Below are positions 45,111 through 63,909 of a DNA stretch of 64,000 nt, one piece after another. The position numbers and the translations under genes are program-made. This stretch comes from Mugil cephalus. Taxonomy: Eukaryota > Chordata > Actinopteri > Mugiliformes > Mugilidae. The first letter of the stretch is position 1; every line of letters begins with the position of its first letter. Location: positions 11,686,175-11,750,174 of the forward strand of contig NC_061789.1 of assembly GCF_022458985.1 (NCBI RefSeq), given 5' to 3'. Under the pieces are notes generated by a model. It was not told where the DNA came from, ran no database searches, and worked only from the letters and a program-made list of their open reading frames with translations.

Positions 45111-45125
45111 ATGAGTGAGGGATGA
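45111..45125 (+). other. Upstream mini-ORF overlapping the keratin-like start codon
   Basis: An ATG at 45111 opens a four-codon frame (Met-Ser-Glu-Gly-stop) whose TGA overlaps the main ATG at 45122 as ATGA. If the transcript starts upstream of 45111, ribosomes would meet this uORF first and could reinitiate at the overlapping start. The transcript start is unknown. Confidence 0.5.
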
Positions 45126-48100
45126 CTCCATGGCAGGTTCTTCGTGCGAGCAGAGCGTCCCAGGCCGCTCTGGGTTACCGTGTTCATCATGGAGCCGGAG
45201 TTTTGATGCATTACAGCGCTGCTCCTGCCGGACCTGCAGCCCCAGACAGCATCAGGAGCTTCTGTTTGTCTGGAGAGAAACGTTCACTGCAGCAGCTCAA
45301 CGGGAGGCTGGCTGCATACCTGCACCAGGTACGACATGCACAAGGCAAAAACACAATATCAGTGTCCAGAAGGATGCTGCAACTATCCATGAAGAAAAAG
45401 AAAAAAGAAATTTAATGGCTACAACATAGAAACACAACTATTCTCAATGAAGTTTTACAATACAGTACAGTAACAACAGAACATACCGAATGTTAGATAG
45501 CTTCATGATCTTTTGTATTAATAATTTTTGATTTATAATTCACATATAACGACGATGAAAGTGTTGCATTTTTAGCATGAACTTAACTTTTTGCATCTGT
45601 ACTCGGTTTCATAGTCTTTGACCCATGAGGTGGAAATACACAGAAAAAAGCATCAGTTTTATGATTTCAAAAACAGAAGTGAGTTTGAATTATTAAACAA
45701 AGAAATAACATAACCGCATTCAGAAAGTAAGTTTTATATAGAGATGGAGAGCAACAGAATTTTAAAGTAACATATTACTTTTACCACTGGATGACATGAA
45801 AGTGAGATTTACAAGTTAAGAGTGACAGATGCCTTAGTCGAGTTCTGCAAAATACTGTGCACGGTTTCATGTGAACTATTCTTTTCTTGTCTTCGTGTGT
45901 TCTAATTATCATTCTTTGATGCCTGAGATTACAAAAATTTCAACCTGATGAAAGCAGAGGCACGTCAAAATACAAAAATTAAACTAGGATATACAATGTG
46001 ACAGTTAATTATTGTTTAAACAGCTAAAAACAACATCACAGCCCGAGAACCAGGCATGTTTAATGATTCCAAAATAAAAGTGAGGAATAATTTCTAGTTA
46101 AGGAAAAAACATTTCTCACTGGAGTTGCGCTTGGACTTCTCCCAGCGGCAGAGCAAATGGAGAACTGAACTAAGCTTAAGCAAACATAAAACGCCTACTT
46201 TCTCTATGAAGTTTTGTATTGAGGACTGCATTTGTTTTATTACTTCAAACTGTTCTGGTGCATGCAGGTCCAGATTCTGGAGGCAGACAATCAGAGGCTG
46301 GAGCAGCAGATCCAGGTGGAGCTGGACAGGAAGTGTCCCAGACAGCTGAGAGAGCTGGACAAACACCTGAGGACAGTGTCCCTGCTGCAGGACCAGGTAA
46401 GAATCAATATATATGAAACCTGAATGAGGCTCTAAAGGAGACATTCAGTCCAGGGACTTGGAGATTAGTGTTCAAGATCCCAGATTGTGGATGAATTTAA
46501 TTACTTGTGAATTTTGTTTAATCAGTTTGTCTCTTTATTTATTAACAGATCAGTGAATGTCTCTCGGCCCAGGCTGAGGTGAAGCTACAGCTGCTCGAAG
46601 AAGAACTCATCGTCTACGAACTCAACATCAAGTAGGTCCCCGCAAATCCAGCCACAGCCACACGGACACAAGTAGATTCATTCCTTGATCCTCTGCTGTG
46701 TGAGCAGGTGTGAAAAGGAGCGTGAGCGGTGTGGTGATCTGGAGGCGGAGCTCAGAGACTTGAGGCTGATCGGGGAGGAGCTGAATGTCTGCACGTTGCC
46801 GGAGCTCCAGAGTCTGTTAAATGAGCTAACACGACAGAAGGTGGAGCTGCAGATACAACACCAGCAGGTAAAACAATGACACGCACCCAGAATGTTTCAA
46901 TGAACATACATGATGTTTCCCATGTACTTGTCCAGGAAATGCAGGTACTCCAGGTTCAGGTGTCAGGGGGGGTCACTGTGGAAATGCAGACTGCTGAGTC
47001 ATCAGATCTGGTCAAAGAGTTGGGTCACCTGCGACAGACGAGTGTGACACTGATCGACATGAACCAGAATGAATCCAGGTTCAACTCTCGGGTACAAATA
47101 TTTGCTGCATGCTTTTATTTTGAAATAAAGAAAACACGAGTGGGAAAAGTGTGTTTTTGTCGTATGAAACAACATTTAATCAGATCTGCTGTGTTCAGGT
47201 GATGGCCTATAACCCTCTAGTGGGATCGAGGGTCGACCAGGCCGAGCTGGAGGAGCTGAGGAGAACAGCCACCAGTCTGACAGAGGAGCTGAAACAACTG
47301 CAGAGTCTGGTGAGAATACAATACTGATCCTGCCACTGCACTGAATTAAAGCAAATACAGTATTTATTTATTTATTTAATGTACTACTGTTCAAAAACGC
47401 AACAAGGATATGCAACCGTGCAATTCTCTGTTGGCACAGGTAGTGGAATTGGATGTCTCTGGACAGGAGAAGACTGAGACATTTGTCGTGCAGCTTGTGT
47501 TTCTGCAGCAAACAGTGGACAGTCTGTGCAGAGACCTGGACTCTGTGATGCAAGCTGCAGCCCAGCAGACTATGGATCATCAGGCCCTTCTGGACGTCAA
47601 GAGCCGGCTGGAGGCAGAGATACAAGGCTACAGAAGGCTGCTGGATGGACTGGGCCACCAGGGGTATGAGACAATGAAATCCTGTAGGGTTACTGCATTT
47701 TTAACCTTTTACTAGCACTCACCTTAACTTTGCATCTCATCAGTTCTTCTGCTGAGTGTAACGTACATAGTATTAGTACTAAACTATGATTCTTACCACT
47801 TATCGTATATATACCCATGTAATGGATTACTTGACACATAAATTAATATATTAGCCAGATATTTAAATGCTGATAGTCACATATTGTTCTTGTCTTTGTG
47901 TGTCCTAACAGAGTTTCAGATCTTGCATCTACATCTGCCTGTGCTGCAACTAGTCCTCATGTATTTAGAGCAAACATAACCTCAGACAAAGCATTCAGAG
48001 TTCAAAGTGAAAATGTTAGGACAGTGGAGGTTCAGAAAGTCTCTAGAGGTCACGTCAACACGGTTGGACAAACCCAGCTCTCGCAAACAGTGATACCAAT

Positions 48101-51100
48101 ACCATCTATTAACGCTTCAGATAATGTCCATGCTAGTAAACTGCAGAACTCTTTGATTGTAGAGGATGAAATCAGCCAAGAGTTAGAAGAAAAATCTGCT
48201 GTCAAGGTTTCAACAGTGGAGATCATCCACACTCAGTTTCCCGACAGCAAACCAGAGACTTCCAAACTAGTTAACTCACTGGACGATGAAGCAGGGACAA
48301 ACATTCAAGTCGATATTACCGAAATCACTACCTATGCAGAGCCAGAAGTAAAGCAGGGATCCCATTTTGTAAAACGTGAAATCACATGTGAACCCAGCAA
48401 GCCTTCTGCTGCAGATAAAGAGACAGGAACTGTGAATTTAGGTCAGATGGATCGCACTGAAGACTCTGTCCATGCTAAGACTGAAAATCCGGCACAGACC
48501 ATGTGTTGTGGGTTGGAGACCCCATTACAGGTGTCGGAATCTGATGTTCACAGGTCAGAAATGGTTAAGGGAGAAGTCTCTGATGTGATGAATGTAATGG
48601 ATGAATGGAATATAGAAAGACAAGAACACACAGAAGGAGTGGAAGCAGAAGTTGTCCCAAAATTGAATGAGAGTTTGGGATTGTCTTGTGCATCCAATAG
48701 CGGAGACAATCTCGTAGAAGATGCAGATATGGGGTCCAGTCTTACATCCACTAGATCTAGTTGTCCAAACAATTTCGAAAATTATGATGGTACAGAGATT
48801 TTGAAGGCAGAAGTGGCCGTAGTGGAGGTAGTCCATGAGATCAGTAAGGTAAAGGTGGACGCAACAGAGCTAGATGATCTAGCAGGTCAAGAGGCATTAA
48901 ATGGATCAGCTGATTCTGGTGTGGCTTCGAGTTTCTACACCTATGAAGACTTTGCAGGTCAAAAAGAAGCTGATGTATCGATATGTCCAACAAAGCTGGA
49001 TACACAGCTGACTGCAGAAATGTGTCAGATTCCAGTTCAGAGTCCAAATGACACAAAAATGCATCCAGACTCAAATGGCTCAGAACAACATTTGAATCCA
49101 GTTGAGGCTGTGGCACTGGTGGGTGACAAGGACATGGAAAGACAAGAAAAAATGAGAGAAGAAGAAACAGAGGGTCCTTTAGTTGTCCCAAGATTGGATG
49201 TAAGTCCATCATTGTCCAATGTGTCCCCCACTGAAACAAACGCATCAAGGGAAGATACAAGGTCAGACATTGCAAAAGCTTCATCTGGTAGCACAGACAG
49301 CACTGATGTTCTAAGGACAGAAGAAACCAAAGTGACGGTAGTCAGTGGTTTCCATACCAACATGGTGAAGGTTGACCCTACTGAGTTGGTTAAAAGGTTG
49401 GCTGGTCTAGTAATTCAAGAGGCATCAAAAATATCTAAGAGTCTAACAGATTCTGGGTTGGCTCTGAGTTCTTCTGGTCCTGAAGAATTTCTGAGTACAA
49501 AAGAAGCTAAGAGCCCATCTGAGTGTCCAGATGACCCAGAAATGTATCTTCACTCAGACACATATTTACATCCAACTGAAGATGAAGCCGCTGAAACGTT
49601 GGCTGACACGTACATAGAAAGACAAGAACAAAAGGAAGAAGAAGATATATCAGAAAGTACTTTGACTTTCCCAATAATAGATCCATGTTCACTATTGTCC
49701 GACGAGTCACACCTTGAACTAAACAAATCAATGGAAGACACAGATGCAGTGTCTGGAACTGCTTTATCTAGTTGCACAGATAGCACCGATAACCATGAGG
49801 GTCCAAATGACCCAGAAATGTGTCTCAGCCCAAATGATTCAGACACCTGTTTGAGTCCTGTCGAGCTTAAGTTGTGCCCGAGTCCAAATTGTGAAGAAGA
49901 TGAAGAAGCATGCCTGAGTCTAACTGAGGCAAACACACATGTGAGACCAGTTGAGAAATATATTCTGTCAACAAGAGAGACAGGCCAGTGGTCAACACCT
50001 AGCAGAGATCAAGCTTCGCCAGATATGGCCAAGCCTGGTGAGTACACAAAAGTAATTATTTCAGAAAGTCAAAGACACGGTTTGGGTTTAAAACTATTTG
50101 AAAGTAGTGAAGGTACCAGTGTTCAGGTAAGCAGCAGACATGGAGGCTTGAGGTGTGGGGATCCAAGTCGTCAGAGTATCATAGCAGACAAAGAGGAACA
50201 GCTCGGCTTTGAAAGCTTGTATTGGAAAAGGGACAAAGACAGAGGTAGCATTCCAGATGACAATAAGCAACAAAGGCTCGATTTTGATAATGATGTGAGA
50301 AAACAGACAAACTGTGATAGGCAAGTTGTCAATAAGTCAGGTAGCAGTGAAAAAGAGTTTAACAATTCAGCGAGCTTTGCATCATCTAACAGAGGAACTA
50401 CCTTTAGAAGTCACACTAGTAATAGTGACATTGGTATAATTAGTGGTAATGAACACAGTGCTACAGCAGATGTACAGGGCAGATTCAGGCGTGGCAGTGG
50501 AGAGTGGATGGTTTATGGGGGAAGTCTGGGACGTACAAGTACCAACTTAACCAACCCAAGAAGTGAAGAATCCCTGTCAACAGATACACTCCCTGCATCA
50601 AGCCACCCAAATACAGGAAGGTTTGGCAGTAGAGGAAGTGGGGAGTGGGTACTTTACGGTGGCAACCTGAGACGTAAGAGCAGCCTGGATGGTGGCACCA
50701 GTTTATCCAGCAAGGGGAATGAAGAAAGCCCACCAGAAGGAGGGAGATTCAGCAGGAGAGGGAGTGGAGAGTGGCTGGTTTATGGAGTTAGTCTTGGAAG
50801 TAAGAACAATCTGACTAGCAGTGACGGTTTACCCAACAGAGAAAGCAAAGAATACCAGCCAACAGCTGTGAACCTACCAACAAGCCCACCCACATCAGGA
50901 AGGTTCAGCAGTGGAGGGAGTGGGGAGTGGAAAGCTTATGGCTGGAGTACTGGACGTTCAAGTAGTGCCGGTAGTGGTGGCAGTCTTAGCTCTGGTAGTG
51001 TTGTTAGGCGCAGTAGCAGTGTTGGAAGTGGTGGTAGGTTAAGCAGTTCAGGTAGCGGCAGGAGGCTCAGCGGTTCACACGGGAGCCACAGGATTAGCAG

Positions 51101-51959
51101 CTCTGGGAGAGTCTCTAGCACTGGCAGTGGTGAATGGAAGCCCGTTTACAGCTCAGCTAGTGGAAGCAAGATCAGTGTGGGGAGTGCAGCGCGACCGAGT
51201 GGAGGGAGGACAACTAGCAGCCAACGAACTCCGAGCCCTGGCGGTAGGATAGGTGTCAGTGGGGGTAGCGGTGGATGGCTGAGCTGTTCAGCAGCAGGTG
51301 GAAAGCGAATAAGCAGCACTGGGAGCGGTTCTAGACATAGCAGCACAAGTAGCAATGAGAGAATCAGCAGCAGAAGTGGAGAAAGGATCAGCAGCTCCTC
51401 AGGGTCAGGCCGGACCAATAGCACGGGGGGGAGGGTCATCAGCAGCAGCGACCGGACAATCGGTAGCACTGGCAGTGGAGCAGGGAGCAAGAAGGAGAGA
51501 ATCAGCATCTGCAAGATGGCAGCGCTGTCGATCTCAGCAGCAGGGAGGGAGAGAAGTCAGGAGCGCCGAAAACAAGCTCAGAGATCCCAACACCAACAAG
51601 CTGCTGGTAAGAACATAGTTTACATGTTACAAAACATCCATACTCTGAGATTAACTGGACCTGTGTTTCAGCCGATACTTCTGGCAGATCTTTAACAGAG
51701 CATAATCAATTCTCCGTGAAGCAACCCTAAACCAATAAACATTGTCATCTATTTTGCATGATTTCTAGAGAAAATCTGTTAATGCAAATACAGAATACTT
51801 AGATAATATATAGATAATTACATACAATTACAGGATATACAGTAATGATTTCTCTCTTCCCTTTCAGTTTCCTCACCTCTCGTGCAGCGCTGGTTGACCA
51901 CAAGTGTTGGGGTCACGAGCGCCAACTCTCAAGGTCTTGATGACATCATGCATCTCTGA
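45122..51959 (+). CDS. Type I keratin-like intermediate filament protein with giant tail
   Basis: Predicted cytoskeletal intermediate-filament protein. Coding exons 45122-45328, 46268-46396, 46549-46631, 46708-46867, 46936-47091, 47199-47309, 47440-47663, 47912-51606 and 51868-51959 join to 1618 codons plus TGA. Residues 1-50 form a short head. The rod runs from about 52 to 352, starting SLQQLNGRLAAYLHQVQILE and ending LLDVKSRLEAEIQGYRRLLD. The block QVSGGVTVEMQTAESSDLVK aligns with the type I keratin block [16 protein letters not shown] of the neighbouring gene, and intron positions and phases match that gene. The rod is divergent and an extra intron splits coil 1A. The tail (358-1618) is unlike ordinary keratin tails: an acidic Ser/Thr/Glu part with three degenerate units, then six GSGEW-type motifs and a Ser/Gly-rich end. 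Orthology to a named gene is not recognised; synemin and filensin fit poorly. The rod assignment is firm; the role of the tail is unknown. Confidence 0.87.
48612..49983 (+). repeat. Three degenerate acidic units in the keratin-like tail
   Basis: Protein-level repeat within the large tail exon. Each unit opens with (I/M)ERQE, at residues 591, 765 and 925, so the period is 174 then 160 residues. Shared blocks follow in order: a hydrophobic-Pro-Leu-Ser segment (VVPKLNESLGLS / VVPRLDVSPSLSN / FPIIDPCSLLSD), a Ser/Thr-Asp segment ending STD, a KVDATEL / KVDPTEL segment, a DSGVASS / DSGLALS segment, and an Asp-Pro-Glu-Met-type segment (NDTKMHPDS / DDPEMYLHS / NDPEMCLSP). The third copy lacks the middle blocks. 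Judged by eye. Confidence 0.65.
50478..51281 (+). repeat. Six GSGEW-type motifs in the keratin-like tail
   Basis: The motif GRF-(2-4)-GSGEW-(2)-Y-G recurs: RRGSGEWMVYGGSLGR (Gly at residue 1218), SRGSGEWVLYGGNLRR (1265), RRGSGEWLVYGVSLGS (1307), SGGSGEWKAYGWSTGR (1359), STGSGEWKPVYSS (1428) and the decayed SGGSGGWLSCS (1475). Spacing is 47, 42, 52, 69 and 47 residues. The stretches between are Ser/Gly-rich. Conservation of Trp and Tyr against a variable Ser/Gly background suggests selection on the motif. Confidence 0.8.
51734..51739 (+). terminator. Candidate intronic poly(A) signal of the keratin-like gene
   Basis: AATAAA in the last intron. If the donor at 51607 is not used, the frame reads on to a stop at 51693-51695 and this signal follows 39 bases later. 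That would give an alternative C-terminus (about 30 residues after Ala-Ala-Gly). Confidence 0.45.
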
Positions 51960-52249
51960 TTGGCTAATTGAGCTTCATCGTGCTTTAAAGGCTGCATTCA
52001 AAATCCCTTCTAAATAGTACTATGTTACAGTAAAAAAAACAAAGATATATATATATATATAAGGAAACTTAAAAACATTGCATTCTTGGATGTATTTTAT
52101 GACCCTCTGCCTAATTCTAAATTTAAAATTTCAAACCTGGTTTAAAGAGTTGGTGTTCTTTAACATTCAGCTCTGAATGTTTTTGATTCACCTTATTTTT
52201 TCTCATATATAATAATAATAAATAATAAATTTGTTAATTTTAACCCAAA

Positions 52250-52255
52250 AATAAA
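52250..52255 (+). terminator. Candidate poly(A) signal of the keratin-like gene
   Basis: AATAAA about 290 bases after the spliced stop codon, in the context cccaaaaataaagctgg. It is the clearest signal at the distal end. Confidence 0.6.
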
Positions 52256-60149: not shown

Positions 60150-61141
60150 ATTGTGTCTGGACTACCGTAGTTTACCACATCCCAAAGGTGCTCTATTGGA
60201 TTGAGATCTGGTGACTTTGGAGGTCACTGGAGTACAACTTATTGTCACATTCAAGAAACCAGTTTGAGATGATATGAGCTTTGTGACATGGAGCATTATC
60301 CTGCTGGAAGTGGCCGCCAGAAGTACACTGTGGTCATAAAGGGAAGGACATGGTCAGCAACAATACTCAGGTAGGCTGTGGCATTTAAATGATGGTCAGA
60401 AGAAGAAAATATCCCCCACACCATTACATCCCCACCACCAGCAGCCGGACCAGCTGATACAAGGCAGGATGGATCCATGCTTTCATATTATTTACGCCAA
60501 ATTCTGATCCTGCCATCTGAATGTAACAGCTGAAATCGAGACTCGTCAGACCAGGCAACGTTTTTCCAACCTTCTTTTGTCCAGTATTGGTGAGCCTGTG
60601 TGAACTGTAGTCTCAGTTTCCTGTTCCTGACAGTAGTGACACCCGGTGTGGTCTTCTGCTGCTGTAGCCCATCTTCTTCAAGGTTCCACGTGTTGTGCGT
60701 TCAGAGATGGTATTCTACATTCCTTGGGAGTAACGAGTGGTTATTTGAGTTACTGTTGCCTTTCTATCATCCCCAACCAGTCTGCCCATTCTCCTCTGAC
60801 CTCTCACATCAACAATTTTCATCCACACAACTGTCTCTTACTGGATATTTTCTCTTTTTCAGACCATTCTCTGTAAACCCTAGAGATGGTTGTGCGTGAA
60901 AAACCCAGTAGATGAGCAGTTTCTGAAATACTCAGACCTGCCCATGTGGCACCAACAACCATACCACGTTCAAAGTCACTTAAATCCCCTTTCTTCTCCA
61001 TTCTGATACTCGGTTTGAACTTCAGCAAGTTGTCTTTATCACCTCTACATGCTTAAATGCATTGAATGGCAGCCATGTGATTGGCTGATTAGCTATTTGT
61101 GTTAACAAGCAATTGAACTGGTGTACCTAATGGCAAGTGAG
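60150..61141 (-). pseudogene. Decayed Tc1-like transposase element, minus strand
   Basis: Read from 61028 downward, the N-terminal helix-turn-helix region is intact (LSDFERGMVVGATWAGLSIS, then LLGFSRTTISRVYREW). After a stop, pieces of the catalytic domain follow in shifting frames: NVAWSDESRFQLL with the first catalytic Asp, GGGDVMVWGIFSS, QQDNAPCHKAH with the second Asp in another frame, and SPDLNPIEHLW with the Glu. At least two stops and one frameshift interrupt it, so it is dead. Sequence beyond the N-terminus (about 61115-61141, gtgtacctaatggcaagtga) matches a known fish Tc1 end; the other terminal repeat is not found. Confidence 0.75.
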
Positions 61142-62139
61142 TGAACTTTAACGTATTTAATTTTAATGTAAAAGTGACAGACCAAGGAGTTAAAACAAGT
61201 TCTGCACTGAAGCATTTCGTGAAGGTTTTACTGACCTTAAAAACACTTGTCTTGATGTCAAGTGAACATACCTGTTAGTTTCCCCTGCAGCCTGCAATCA
61301 GCAGTTTGAAATGATAGAAACTTGCCTGCAGCAGCAAAGCACTCAGATACACCCAAGTTCTTTGTAGTCAAATCGTTAAAGTTATACAGTTGGTGACACA
61401 TGAAGAGTTTTGATGATTTATATCCAATCAGTGAGTGATAAACAGATTCATTATGCTCAAGGAAAATAAGAAAAACTGTGTCACATATAGTTGTAAACTA
61501 ATCGATCTCACAGATTTCTCATCAAGAATTTAATGTAATCTCTAATTTAATCTCTCATTAAGAATTTATTTTGCATGACACATGGAGAATCTCTCTCAAG
61601 ATATATAAATTTATAAGGGCTCTCGAGAAACGTTGGCCCCTCTAGGGTTTTAACCCTGAATGGTGTTACTGACCTGAAGTCAGTATAGTCTGATGCTCCT
61701 CCTCTTATTGTCAGCTTTGTTTGCTCAAGATTAAACAGCTCATCGTGATCAAACCAGTGGTTTACTCTGTAATCCGGCATGGCCCGAGAGAGATGAGGAT
61801 TGTGTAGGTGTCACATTCTTTTTCTTTTCTAACCACCTGTTCACTTTGCCTGAAAAGGTGATTACATCTAAGTGGTCTTCACCGTGTCTGAACTGGCCCT
61901 GCAGCGTTTCCATCACCTTTAGTTCACGGATGTATGATGTGAAATAAAAGTTGGCGAGAGAATCCTGTAATTCACTGTAGAGCGTATGGGTGGATTCCAC
62001 ATTTCTCAGACACACCCAAAACCATTATGTTTTCTGCTATTTATGAGTTAAATAAGATCAGGTGTCTCCTCCCAGACTTGGCACAAGTTCACCATCTTTC
62101 CCCCCTCCTCCTCCGTCTCCTCACTTACTCCTCTAACTG

Positions 62140-62147
62140 TATAAAAG
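62140..62147 (+). promoter_or_regulatory. TATA box of the type I keratin gene
   Basis: TATAAAAG lies 82 bases before the keratin start codon, consistent with a strong TATA promoter and a 5' UTR of about 55-60 bases, usual for type I keratins. Confidence 0.8.
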
Positions 62148-62228
62148 TCAGAGAATCTCTGTACTCTACACTTTCTCCTCTTCAGCTGAAGCAGAAAGAC
62201 AGCTTCCTCATCCTCACCACAAATAAAG

Positions 62229-63909
62229 ATGATGTCCTTTTCCAGAACATCCAGGTCCAGTGGTGGAGCCTACATGGGCAGCAGTAGGTCCATGTCTGGA
62301 GCCATCGGAGGCTCTGTCAGAATGTCCTCCGGTAGCTCCTCCATGTCCATGTATGGTGGCAGCAGTGGTGGAGGTGGTGGAGCTGGCTATAGCTTCGGCT
62401 ACGGTGGTGGTGCAGGTGGAGCAGGTGGTGCTGCGTTCGGGTTTGGCGGCGGCAGTGACGGTGGCGTCGACAGCATGAGCATCTCTGTCAACAAGAAGGT
62501 CACCATGCAGAACCTGAATGACCGCCTGGCCACCTACCTGGAGAAAGTGCGCAAGCTGGAGACAGCCAACGCTGACCTGGAGCTGAAGATCAAGCAGTTC
62601 CTGGAGAGCAAGTTATCCCCATCTGCCAAAGACTACAGTGCCTACTTTAAAACCATCGCAGAGCTCCAGGGAAAGGTAGGCTCAACTTTGTTTAGTCATG
62701 TGGCCACCAACAGGAAGATGTGTGCACTCTCAGCATCATCTTTGTTATTTTTTTCTTGTTAAATTAATTTTTTCATTAATGTGTTCTCTCAGTGAAAGTG
62801 TTTTCAACTCTTTGGTCTTCTCATTAAATTGTCACGTAGTGTACTCTAAATTTTAAGTTTTATCTTCCAGATCCAGGATGCCACCAGAGTCAACGGAGGC
62901 CTCTACCTCTCCATTGACAACGCCAAGCTGGCCTCTGATGACTTCAGGATCAAGTGAGTGAAGTACTTCTTTACTGATAAAAACATATTTCTAAAATAAA
63001 TGAAATTAAAATTAGATCATGCCAATGCATTACTTTTTCTGATGTGTTTTTGGTAGCTGAACACAACCATCCTGAGCAAATGCAGAAATTAAACCTTTGT
63101 GTTCCCTACAGGTTTGAGAACGAGATGTCCATGCGCCAGTCAGTGGAGGCCGATATCGCCGGGCTCAGGAGACTCCTGGACGAACTCACTCTGGCCAGGG
63201 CCGACCTGGAGATGCAGATCGAGGGTCTGAAGGAGGAGCTGATCTTCCTCAAGAAGAACCACGAGGAGGTCAGTGATCTCTTTTGATCTTTTGTTTAAGG
63301 GGTCTGGTTTGGGGTTCAATAGGATCTGGGCTGTTTAAATCACGTTAGAATTTTGTCTCTTTACCGTATCTGTAGGAGCTGCTAGCCATGCGAACTCAAA
63401 TGAGTGGTCAGGTCAACGTGGAGGTGGACGCCACTCCAGGAGCAGACCTCAACAAGATCATAGAGGAAATAAGGGAGCAGTATGAAGCTGTCAGCGCAAA
63501 GAACCAAAAGGAGCTGGAGGCCTGGTTCCAGGCCAAGGTGAGAACAGGATTGTTATTTCTACGTTGGTTTGGTGCACACAGAAAATTTCGAAAACTTTCT
63601 GTTAAATTAGTCGTTTTTGTGCTCACATATGACTTTAAAAACAAGAAGAAGAAGTCGCCATTATAACATGAATAAATAAAATTACTGCTATTGTTTTACT
63701 AAACTTAGTGTATTGTATGTAGTGTGGTTGAATAAATGAATAGTTCTGCATGTTGTGACCATGCTGTTGTTGTTCCTCCACAGTCAGACGAACTAAACAA
63801 AGAAGTCGTCACCAGCACAGTAACTCTCCAGACAACAAAATCAGAGATCTCAGACCTCAAACGAACACTACAGGCCCTGGAGATAGAGCTACAGGCTCAG
63901 CTCAGCATG
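62229..63909 (+). CDS. Type I keratin, 5' part (continues beyond window)
   Basis: Acidic (type I) keratin that would pair with a type II keratin in epithelial intermediate filaments. Exons 62229-62675, 62871-62953, 63112-63268, 63376-63537 and 63784-63909 give 325 residues in one frame; the last donor is at 63910, so later exons (end of coil 2 and tail) lie outside the window. The head (1-85) is Gly/Ser-rich. The helix-initiation motif is [17 protein letters not shown] at about 96-111. Coil 1B contains [20 protein letters not shown] and LKKNHEE, and coil 2 contains [18 protein letters not shown]. Two start codons are in tandem (62229 and 62232); the first is listed. All landmarks are conventional. 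It cannot be assigned to one fish keratin paralogue from this part alone. Confidence 0.95.

Follow-up and report, generated by a model that had tools for sequence, protein, structure and literature searches.

The best-known intermediate-filament proteins with giant tails belong to the neurofilament/type VI branch, and filensin (BFSP1) is also an intermediate-filament protein with a long tail. As far as the available part of PMC2075511 describes them, the tails of nestin and transitin contain Glu-rich stretches and repeats, in tanabin an exon of 4,848 nt precedes a final one of 71 nt, and type VI rods are encoded on three exons, two of their introns being common to neurofilament genes. In the available part of PMC11121635, nestin is described as having a short head and a long tail and as capable of co-assembly only, and phakinin (BFSP2) is described as tailless. 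Here we describe a gene of Mugil cephalus (genome of 634.8 Mb, 24 contigs) in which a type I keratin rod was found joined, by prediction, to a tail of about 1,260 residues. It is located on the plus strand at positions 45122-51959 of the 64,000-nt stretch C20:11686175-11750174, referred to below as the window; coordinates without a contig name are positions of this window. Like nestin, transitin, tanabin and synemin, as far as these are described in the text cited, the gene combines a rod with a giant tail on a huge exon containing acidic stretches and repeats, and its small last exon is similar to that of tanabin. Unlike the three-exon rods given there for type VI, its rod is spread over seven exons with type I introns. 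The likeness to type VI is one of layout and not of descent.

We consider it fairly probable that this is a single gene of the type I branch, located beside the type I cluster, whose assembly-competent rod and giant tail would make it a minor keratin-filament subunit with side arms. If true, a type I keratin with this layout would be a convergent case, in which keratin filaments, usually short-tailed, gain a long bipartite side arm, and it would offer a test of tail length setting spacing and attachment in keratin networks. Among the matches listed in the open-licence literature on fish keratins, thread keratin, KRT222, L3MBTL2, type VI proteins, phakinin/filensin and plakin repeats, no title or abstract opening named a giant-tailed type I keratin. 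The available part of PMC6778804 lists 23 zebrafish type I keratins, and tail lengths are not discussed there.

Gene model and coding character of the tail exon

The original prediction of a giant-tailed intermediate-filament gene at this position was confirmed by an open nine-exon model with a Pfam rod, a tail frame of 1,272 codons and three-base periodicity in that frame. The predicted model encodes 1,618 residues with a single terminal stop, and every intron is of the GT-AG type. The protein consists of a short head, an intermediate-filament rod and the giant tail, most of which is encoded by a 3,695-nt exon. The features of the gene are listed below, with intron positions given as rod column and phase.

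45122..45328, plus strand: exon 1, encoding the 55-residue head and the beginning of coil 1A (LQQLNGRLAAYLHQ); followed by the extra intron (column 14, phase 0)
46268..46396, plus strand: exon 2, remainder of coil 1A plus the linker; followed by the type I-specific intron (column 57, phase 0)
46549..46631, plus strand: exon 3 (coil 1B, 83 nt); followed by the intron at column 85, phase 2
46708..46867, plus strand: exon 4, 160 nt, coil 1B; does not contain the column-105 intron
46936..47091, plus strand: exon 5, 156 nt; contains the type I-like stretch VTVEMQTAESSDLVKEL
47199..47309, plus strand: exon 6, 111 nt
47440..47663, plus strand: exon 7, 224 nt, coil 2B with the helix termination motif LLDVKSRLEAEIQGYRRLLDG; rod end at about 47649
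47912..51606, plus strand: exon 8, 3,695 nt, giant tail, residues 357-1588
51868..51959, plus strand: exon 9, last 30 residues, terminal GLDDIMHL and stop; predicted solely on the basis of splice sites and frame
52217..52255, plus strand: three AATAAA polyadenylation signals, at 52217, 52224 and 52250

The rod exons were located independently with a purpose-written aligner, which matches a rod profile to intron-containing genomic DNA and made no use of the exons of the original prediction. On the raw sequence, five of the six rod introns were placed at bases identical to those of the nine-exon model. For the sixth, the profile aligner ran on in exon 5 to 47148, 57 nt beyond the donor, and started exon 6 at 47241, versus 47091 and 47199 in the model. 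The boundaries of the model were preferred, since an intron in phase 0 at column 191 is present in 36 of the 40 filament loci compared (all except L025, L032, L055 and L056), and since a simple deletion then remains. Exons 5 and 6 together show a net loss of 7 residues in coil 2, made up of separate losses of 2 and 5 residues that amount to one heptad. A short upstream reading frame of four codons (ATG AGT GAG GGA TGA, 45111-45125), the end of which overlaps the presumed start codon at 45122, was also detected and may tune translation.

The tail frame of exon 8 was shown to be open and coding-like. It is open for 1,272 codons, and the longest frame in 200 mononucleotide shuffles of the exon was 151 codons. 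The period-3 power of exon 8 was 25.9, compared to a maximum of 3.7 in 500 shuffles and to values of 0.4-3.6 in seven overlapping downstream windows of equal length. In pieces of 600 nt, the six full pieces of exon 8 gave 8.1, 10.1, 8.1, 3.7, 8.2, and 29.9 (0.8 for the 95-nt remainder), and 16 control pieces of 600 nt gave 0.0-1.6; a 17th control piece (61901-62500; 5.7) overlaps the first exon of the next keratin gene.

Rod class and the extra intron

The rod matched the Pfam Filament profile (PF00038) with 128.9 bits and an E value of 4.3e-37 over profile positions 2-309 of 313, and its best PDB matches were K14, vimentin, and K10. The isoelectric point (pI) of head plus rod is 5.10 and that of the whole protein 5.07, which is acidic, as for a type I keratin. 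For comparison, 40 filament loci of the Mugil cephalus genome were fetched and spliced with the same aligner. In a tree of 37 rods, the giant-tail rod was found inside the type I branch of 22 rows (support 100/100), and in approximately unbiased (AU) tests its grouping with type II (p 0.003) and with type III (p 0.002) was rejected. The assignment of the rod to the type I keratins, made originally from sequence and intron phase, is therefore upheld by profile, introns, tree, and AU tests. The position within type I is tentative: the 37-rod tree placed the giant-tail rod in the K14/fish epidermal group (94/87) on a branch of length 2.49 and with deviant composition, and in a smaller tree, with other long rows left out, support for its place within type I was 49/34 and the branch length 2.84. 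Neither grouping with BFSP2 (p 0.245) nor a position outside all other type I rods (p 0.11) was rejected.

Twelve type I keratins of the genome share exactly the introns (57,0), (85,2), (137,0), (191,0), and (233,0). The giant-tail gene has rod introns at columns 14, 57, 85, 137, 191 (the last according to the nine-exon model), and 233 and none at column 105, with the type I phases kept at columns 57, 85, 137, and 233. The original statement that the intron phases are those of type I thus stood for the type I set, but not for one extra intron, (14,0), which is found at a type II keratin site and in the type II phase. This intron divides the usual exon 1, so that the exon 1 region is unlike that of an ordinary type I keratin. 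The type II keratins have (85,2), (105,0), (137,0), (191,0), and (233,0) in addition to the column-14 intron, which was aligned outright in L050 and L057; in L036-L039 and L042 the aligned exon starts near column 15, which is where it should start when exon 1 is left unlinked. Type III loci (L041, L043, L044, L047, and L054) contain the column-105 intron and lack those at columns 14 and 57; L055 joins them in the tree but has other introns. The column-14 intron was absent from all 16 type I genes that could be aligned through the region (15 keratins and bfsp2).

An extra intron at a type II site bears on the origin of type I and type II gene structures. The gene might represent a relic keratin lineage that diverged earlier than every other type I keratin and retained the column-14 intron of a type I/II ancestor; it would then be older than the type I crown, with mosaic type I/II introns and an independently evolved nestin-like tail giving side arms in some fish tissue. 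The shared column and phase agree with such an origin, as does the tree in which all other type I rods form a clade excluding the giant-tail rod (p 0.11, see above). If new introns enter AG|G sites, of which the rod contains 20 in the phase of the column-14 intron and 31 overall, exact re-use of the type II site by chance would have a frequency of about 1 in 20 to 1 in 31. The column-14 intron site is itself AG|G, however, exon 1 looked type I-like by eye, and intron 1 showed no convincing match among the 41 filament loci compared. The best tree nests the rod within the K14/fish epidermal group, albeit weakly when other long rows are left out, and the intron is missing from every aligned type I gene. 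Moreover, the type I keratins L022 and L023 (C20) and L033 (C7) contain the type I intron set plus an extra intron of their own, (258,0), which is a second case of intron gain among type I genes of Mugil cephalus. Since these three genes gained an intron of their own, an ancient origin of the column-14 intron became less likely, and we regard it as very improbable. Transfer of exon 1 and intron 1 from a type II keratin was also considered and rejected: intron 1 DNA gave no match better than E 0.6, and exon 1 gave none to a type II locus.

The ends of the type I rod have been kept in the giant-tail gene, and its middle has drifted. Of the 52 columns that are invariant across 15 type I rods of the genome, 34 are kept (36 in bfsp2): 13/13 at the rod start (columns 2-29), 10/10 at the rod end (columns 283-301), and 11/29 between, where column assignment follows the aligner path and the stretch before column 210 was read past the donor. 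The difference between ends (23/23) and middle (11/29) was significant (Fisher p 9e-7). The conserved ends show assembly-type constraint and no more than that, as the ends of such rods are generally better kept. A hydrophobic residue was present at 83% of 69 core columns, compared to 87% of 67 in bfsp2 and 97-100% in L021, L029, and L053.

Compared with the type I keratins of the C20 and C2 clusters and human K14 and K18, the giant-tail gene shares the rod profile, the helix start and end motifs, the introns, the place in the tree and the cluster position; it differs by the giant tail, the column-14 intron and a rod that is about 28% identical on average. With phakinin it shares the type I intron pattern and a long branch within type I. 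A second gene of the phakinin branch that gained a tail and works in the beaded filaments of the lens is an alternative to be weighed. It agrees with the type I introns of bfsp2 in this genome, with the place of bfsp2 itself on the type I branch of the rod tree, and with the AU test, in which the two rods could be grouped (p 0.245). The free tree nevertheless keeps them apart, the log-likelihood being 4.4 worse when they are forced together; at the rod start all 13 invariant columns are kept in the giant-tail gene and 10/13 in bfsp2, and the relatives of bfsp2 and bfsp1 are located elsewhere, on C7 and C13. We regard a phakinin-like lens protein as unlikely. In contrast to the giant-tail gene with its ~1,260-residue tail, phakinin is tailless according to the part of PMC11121635 cited above.

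Orthology to three named genes was rejected. The bfsp2 gene with type I introns is L058 on C7. For BFSP1, with which a long tail is shared, the best match to the human filensin sequence was located on C13 (C13:15354247-15360285; 60% identity over the rod end), and the six matches at E 0.1 did not include the giant-tail gene. KRT222, which adjoins the type I cluster in mammals, shares a type I-like rod end with the giant-tail gene; the krt222-like locus, identified by eye against human KRT222, is L032 on C2, and the upstream neighbour of the giant-tail gene is an MBT/FCS gene and not SMARCE1. The names bfsp2, bfsp1, and krt222 in Mugil cephalus are presumptive, as they rest on comparison with human sequences. 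Thread keratin gamma has a type I-like rod in trees and a type III gene structure; the column-105 intron of that structure is absent from the giant-tail gene.

Two observations concern the lens genes themselves. In L058 (C7:1217800-1222300) a tandem repeat that is open in several frames (SPINHSSITHQSLINHP...) fills the column-85 intron. Furthermore, filensin apparently has no orthologue in zebrafish according to the available part of PMC8733776, in contrast to Mugil cephalus, where the filensin relative on C13 is present.

Tail architecture and proposed role

The tail was found to be bipartite, with an acidic part containing repeats of about 160 residues (residues 357-1199, pI 4.49) followed by a basic, Ser/Gly/Arg-rich part with five GSGEW units (residues 1200-1618, pI 11.37).

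48603..49130, plus strand: tail repeat R1, acidic, residues 588-763
49131..49610, plus strand: tail repeat R2, acidic, residues 764-923
49611..49958, plus strand: tail repeat R3, partial, residues 924-1039
50472..51137, plus strand: five units, four of the form GRFxxxGSGEWxxYG and the fifth shorter, with GSGEW at residues 1218, 1265, 1307, 1359, and 1428
50949..51605, plus strand: basic Ser/Gly/Arg-rich tail end

Since self-BLAST of the tail gave no off-diagonal match, the repeats, with borders chosen by eye, were compared by pairwise alignment against 1000 shuffles. R1-R2 scored 114 (shuffle maximum 65) and R2-R3 scored 96 (shuffle maximum 58), scores not reached by any shuffle. When copies of the 63-nt unit were sought by DNA identity alone, the same first four were recovered, all in one frame; their differences at codon positions 1/2/3 (44/29/56 in six non-independent pairs) represent a moderate coding-like excess. 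The lack of recognised similarity claimed for the tail held in Pfam, where no family reached the cut-off, and in PDB, where no sequence matched at E 1. Searches of the genome itself with tail protein and exon 8 DNA gave only self-matches (the DNA search skips simple repeats), and a derivation of the tail from another sequence of the same genome was rejected, as no source was found with either. No relatives were found in viral contigs, prokaryote genomes and phages, collections that do not contain animal genomes. In each of 17 other type I loci, the ~1-1.9 kb examined beyond the rod contained no open frame of more than 139 residues; an exon lying farther away would escape this range.

The gene product is probably a keratin that co-assembles into filaments and equips them with long side arms. 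Its pairing partner, the projection, docking and regulation of its tail, and its tissue are inferred. Via its conserved ends, the rod would pair with a type II keratin, the kind of chain with which type I keratins form obligate heterodimers, and would enter keratin filaments as a minor component. The acidic, repeat-containing portion of the tail (residues ~357-1199) may act as a polar spacer standing off the filament, and the basic end with the five GSGEW units (~1200-1618) may bind a partner, such as a neighbouring filament, the desmosomal plaque or a microtubule. A minor co-polymer with a stand-off tail is proposed by analogy with nestin, as described in the part of PMC11121635 cited. Docking of the basic end would probably be switched by phosphorylation, a step suggested by its compositional likeness to the Gly-Ser-Arg repeat of desmoplakin, the hypo-phosphorylated form of which binds filaments better and whose phosphorylation tunes binding (PMC10404246, available part). 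The likeness to the C-terminal repeats of plakins is limited to a Ser/Gly/Arg-rich C-terminus with no Pfam or PDB match, and is a functional analogy only. There are 22 RxxS sites within residues 1200-1618.

Several observations weigh against a functional side-arm keratin. The synonymous codon-usage score, trained on the filament rods of the genome, was -0.34 bits/codon for exon 8 in frame, the lowest of the six frames, compared to +0.33 for the rod; in our reading the base composition of the tail is simply different, but the result counts against us. Likewise, third-position GC is 0.39 in the tail versus 0.66 in the rod, which may reflect a younger tail or low expression of the gene. The five GSGEW copies differ at third codon positions only (0/0/20), which proves little because the copies were picked by peptide and the test is near-circular, and the long repeats show no clear third-position excess (60/54/69 for R1-R2, 21/18/13 for R2-R3). 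The R1-R3 score of 47 was reached by 29/1000 shuffles and is not significant alone. RxxS sites and Ser/Gly/Arg content are weak indicators, the exon 7/exon 8 junction and exon 9 are predicted from splice signals and frame, and the evidence on the tail comes from a single species. The rod has diverged strongly (its identity to 15 type I rods of the genome averages 0.28, and its best identity is 32%, to human K14), with a changed middle and one residue gained in coil 1B, and entry into filaments is for these reasons not certain. The odds of all readings other than an ancient relic lineage were left unchanged, as the length-matched period-3 comparison makes up for the weaker GSGEW test.

Two alternatives draw on these same points. 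The rod exons could belong to a decaying keratin gene that is followed by an unrelated gene containing the tail exon, as the exon 7/8 join is a prediction and the codon usage of the tail is unlike that of the rod. However, the 248-bp intron between exons 7 and 8 joins rod to tail in the required phase 2 with the acceptor tcctaacag, and the seven rod exons show open frames, intact splice sites and well-kept rod ends, so two separate genes appear quite unlikely. The second alternative is a single gene under relaxed constraint that is becoming a pseudogene, in line with the long branch in both trees, the drift of the rod middle and the codon usage of the tail. Against this stand 1,618 codons without an internal stop, the intactness of all splice sites and the rod ends kept at 23/23 invariant columns, and we consider incipient decay the least probable of the alternatives.

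Neighbouring genes and other filament loci

The claim that the gene is located next to a keratin cluster was borne out: at least six type I keratin genes follow one another on the same strand between ~62.2 kb of the window and ~C20:11793400, the first of which begins ~10 kb downstream of the giant-tail gene. Upstream, at ~37.9-42.9 kb on the minus strand, lies a gene encoding MBT repeats plus an FCS zinc finger, presumably L3MBTL2-like, and an NDK exon is present near 30.6 kb on the plus strand. Minus-strand fragments at 60488-61052, which resemble a Tc1-type transposase, were detected between the giant-tail gene and the keratin row; the part at 60491-60700 gave no Pfam match at E 0.01.

Elsewhere in the genome, the type I keratin L031 (C2:12602500-12607000) and the krt222-like L032 (C2:12625000-12628500) are ~20 kb apart. 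Four near-identical divergent type I keratin copies (L024-L027; VPDYSCYYATISDLRAQIEKQW...) are located in a row at C2:7306000-7343200, and for one of these, L025, the aligner path contained a stop and odd introns, suggesting that this copy may be broken.

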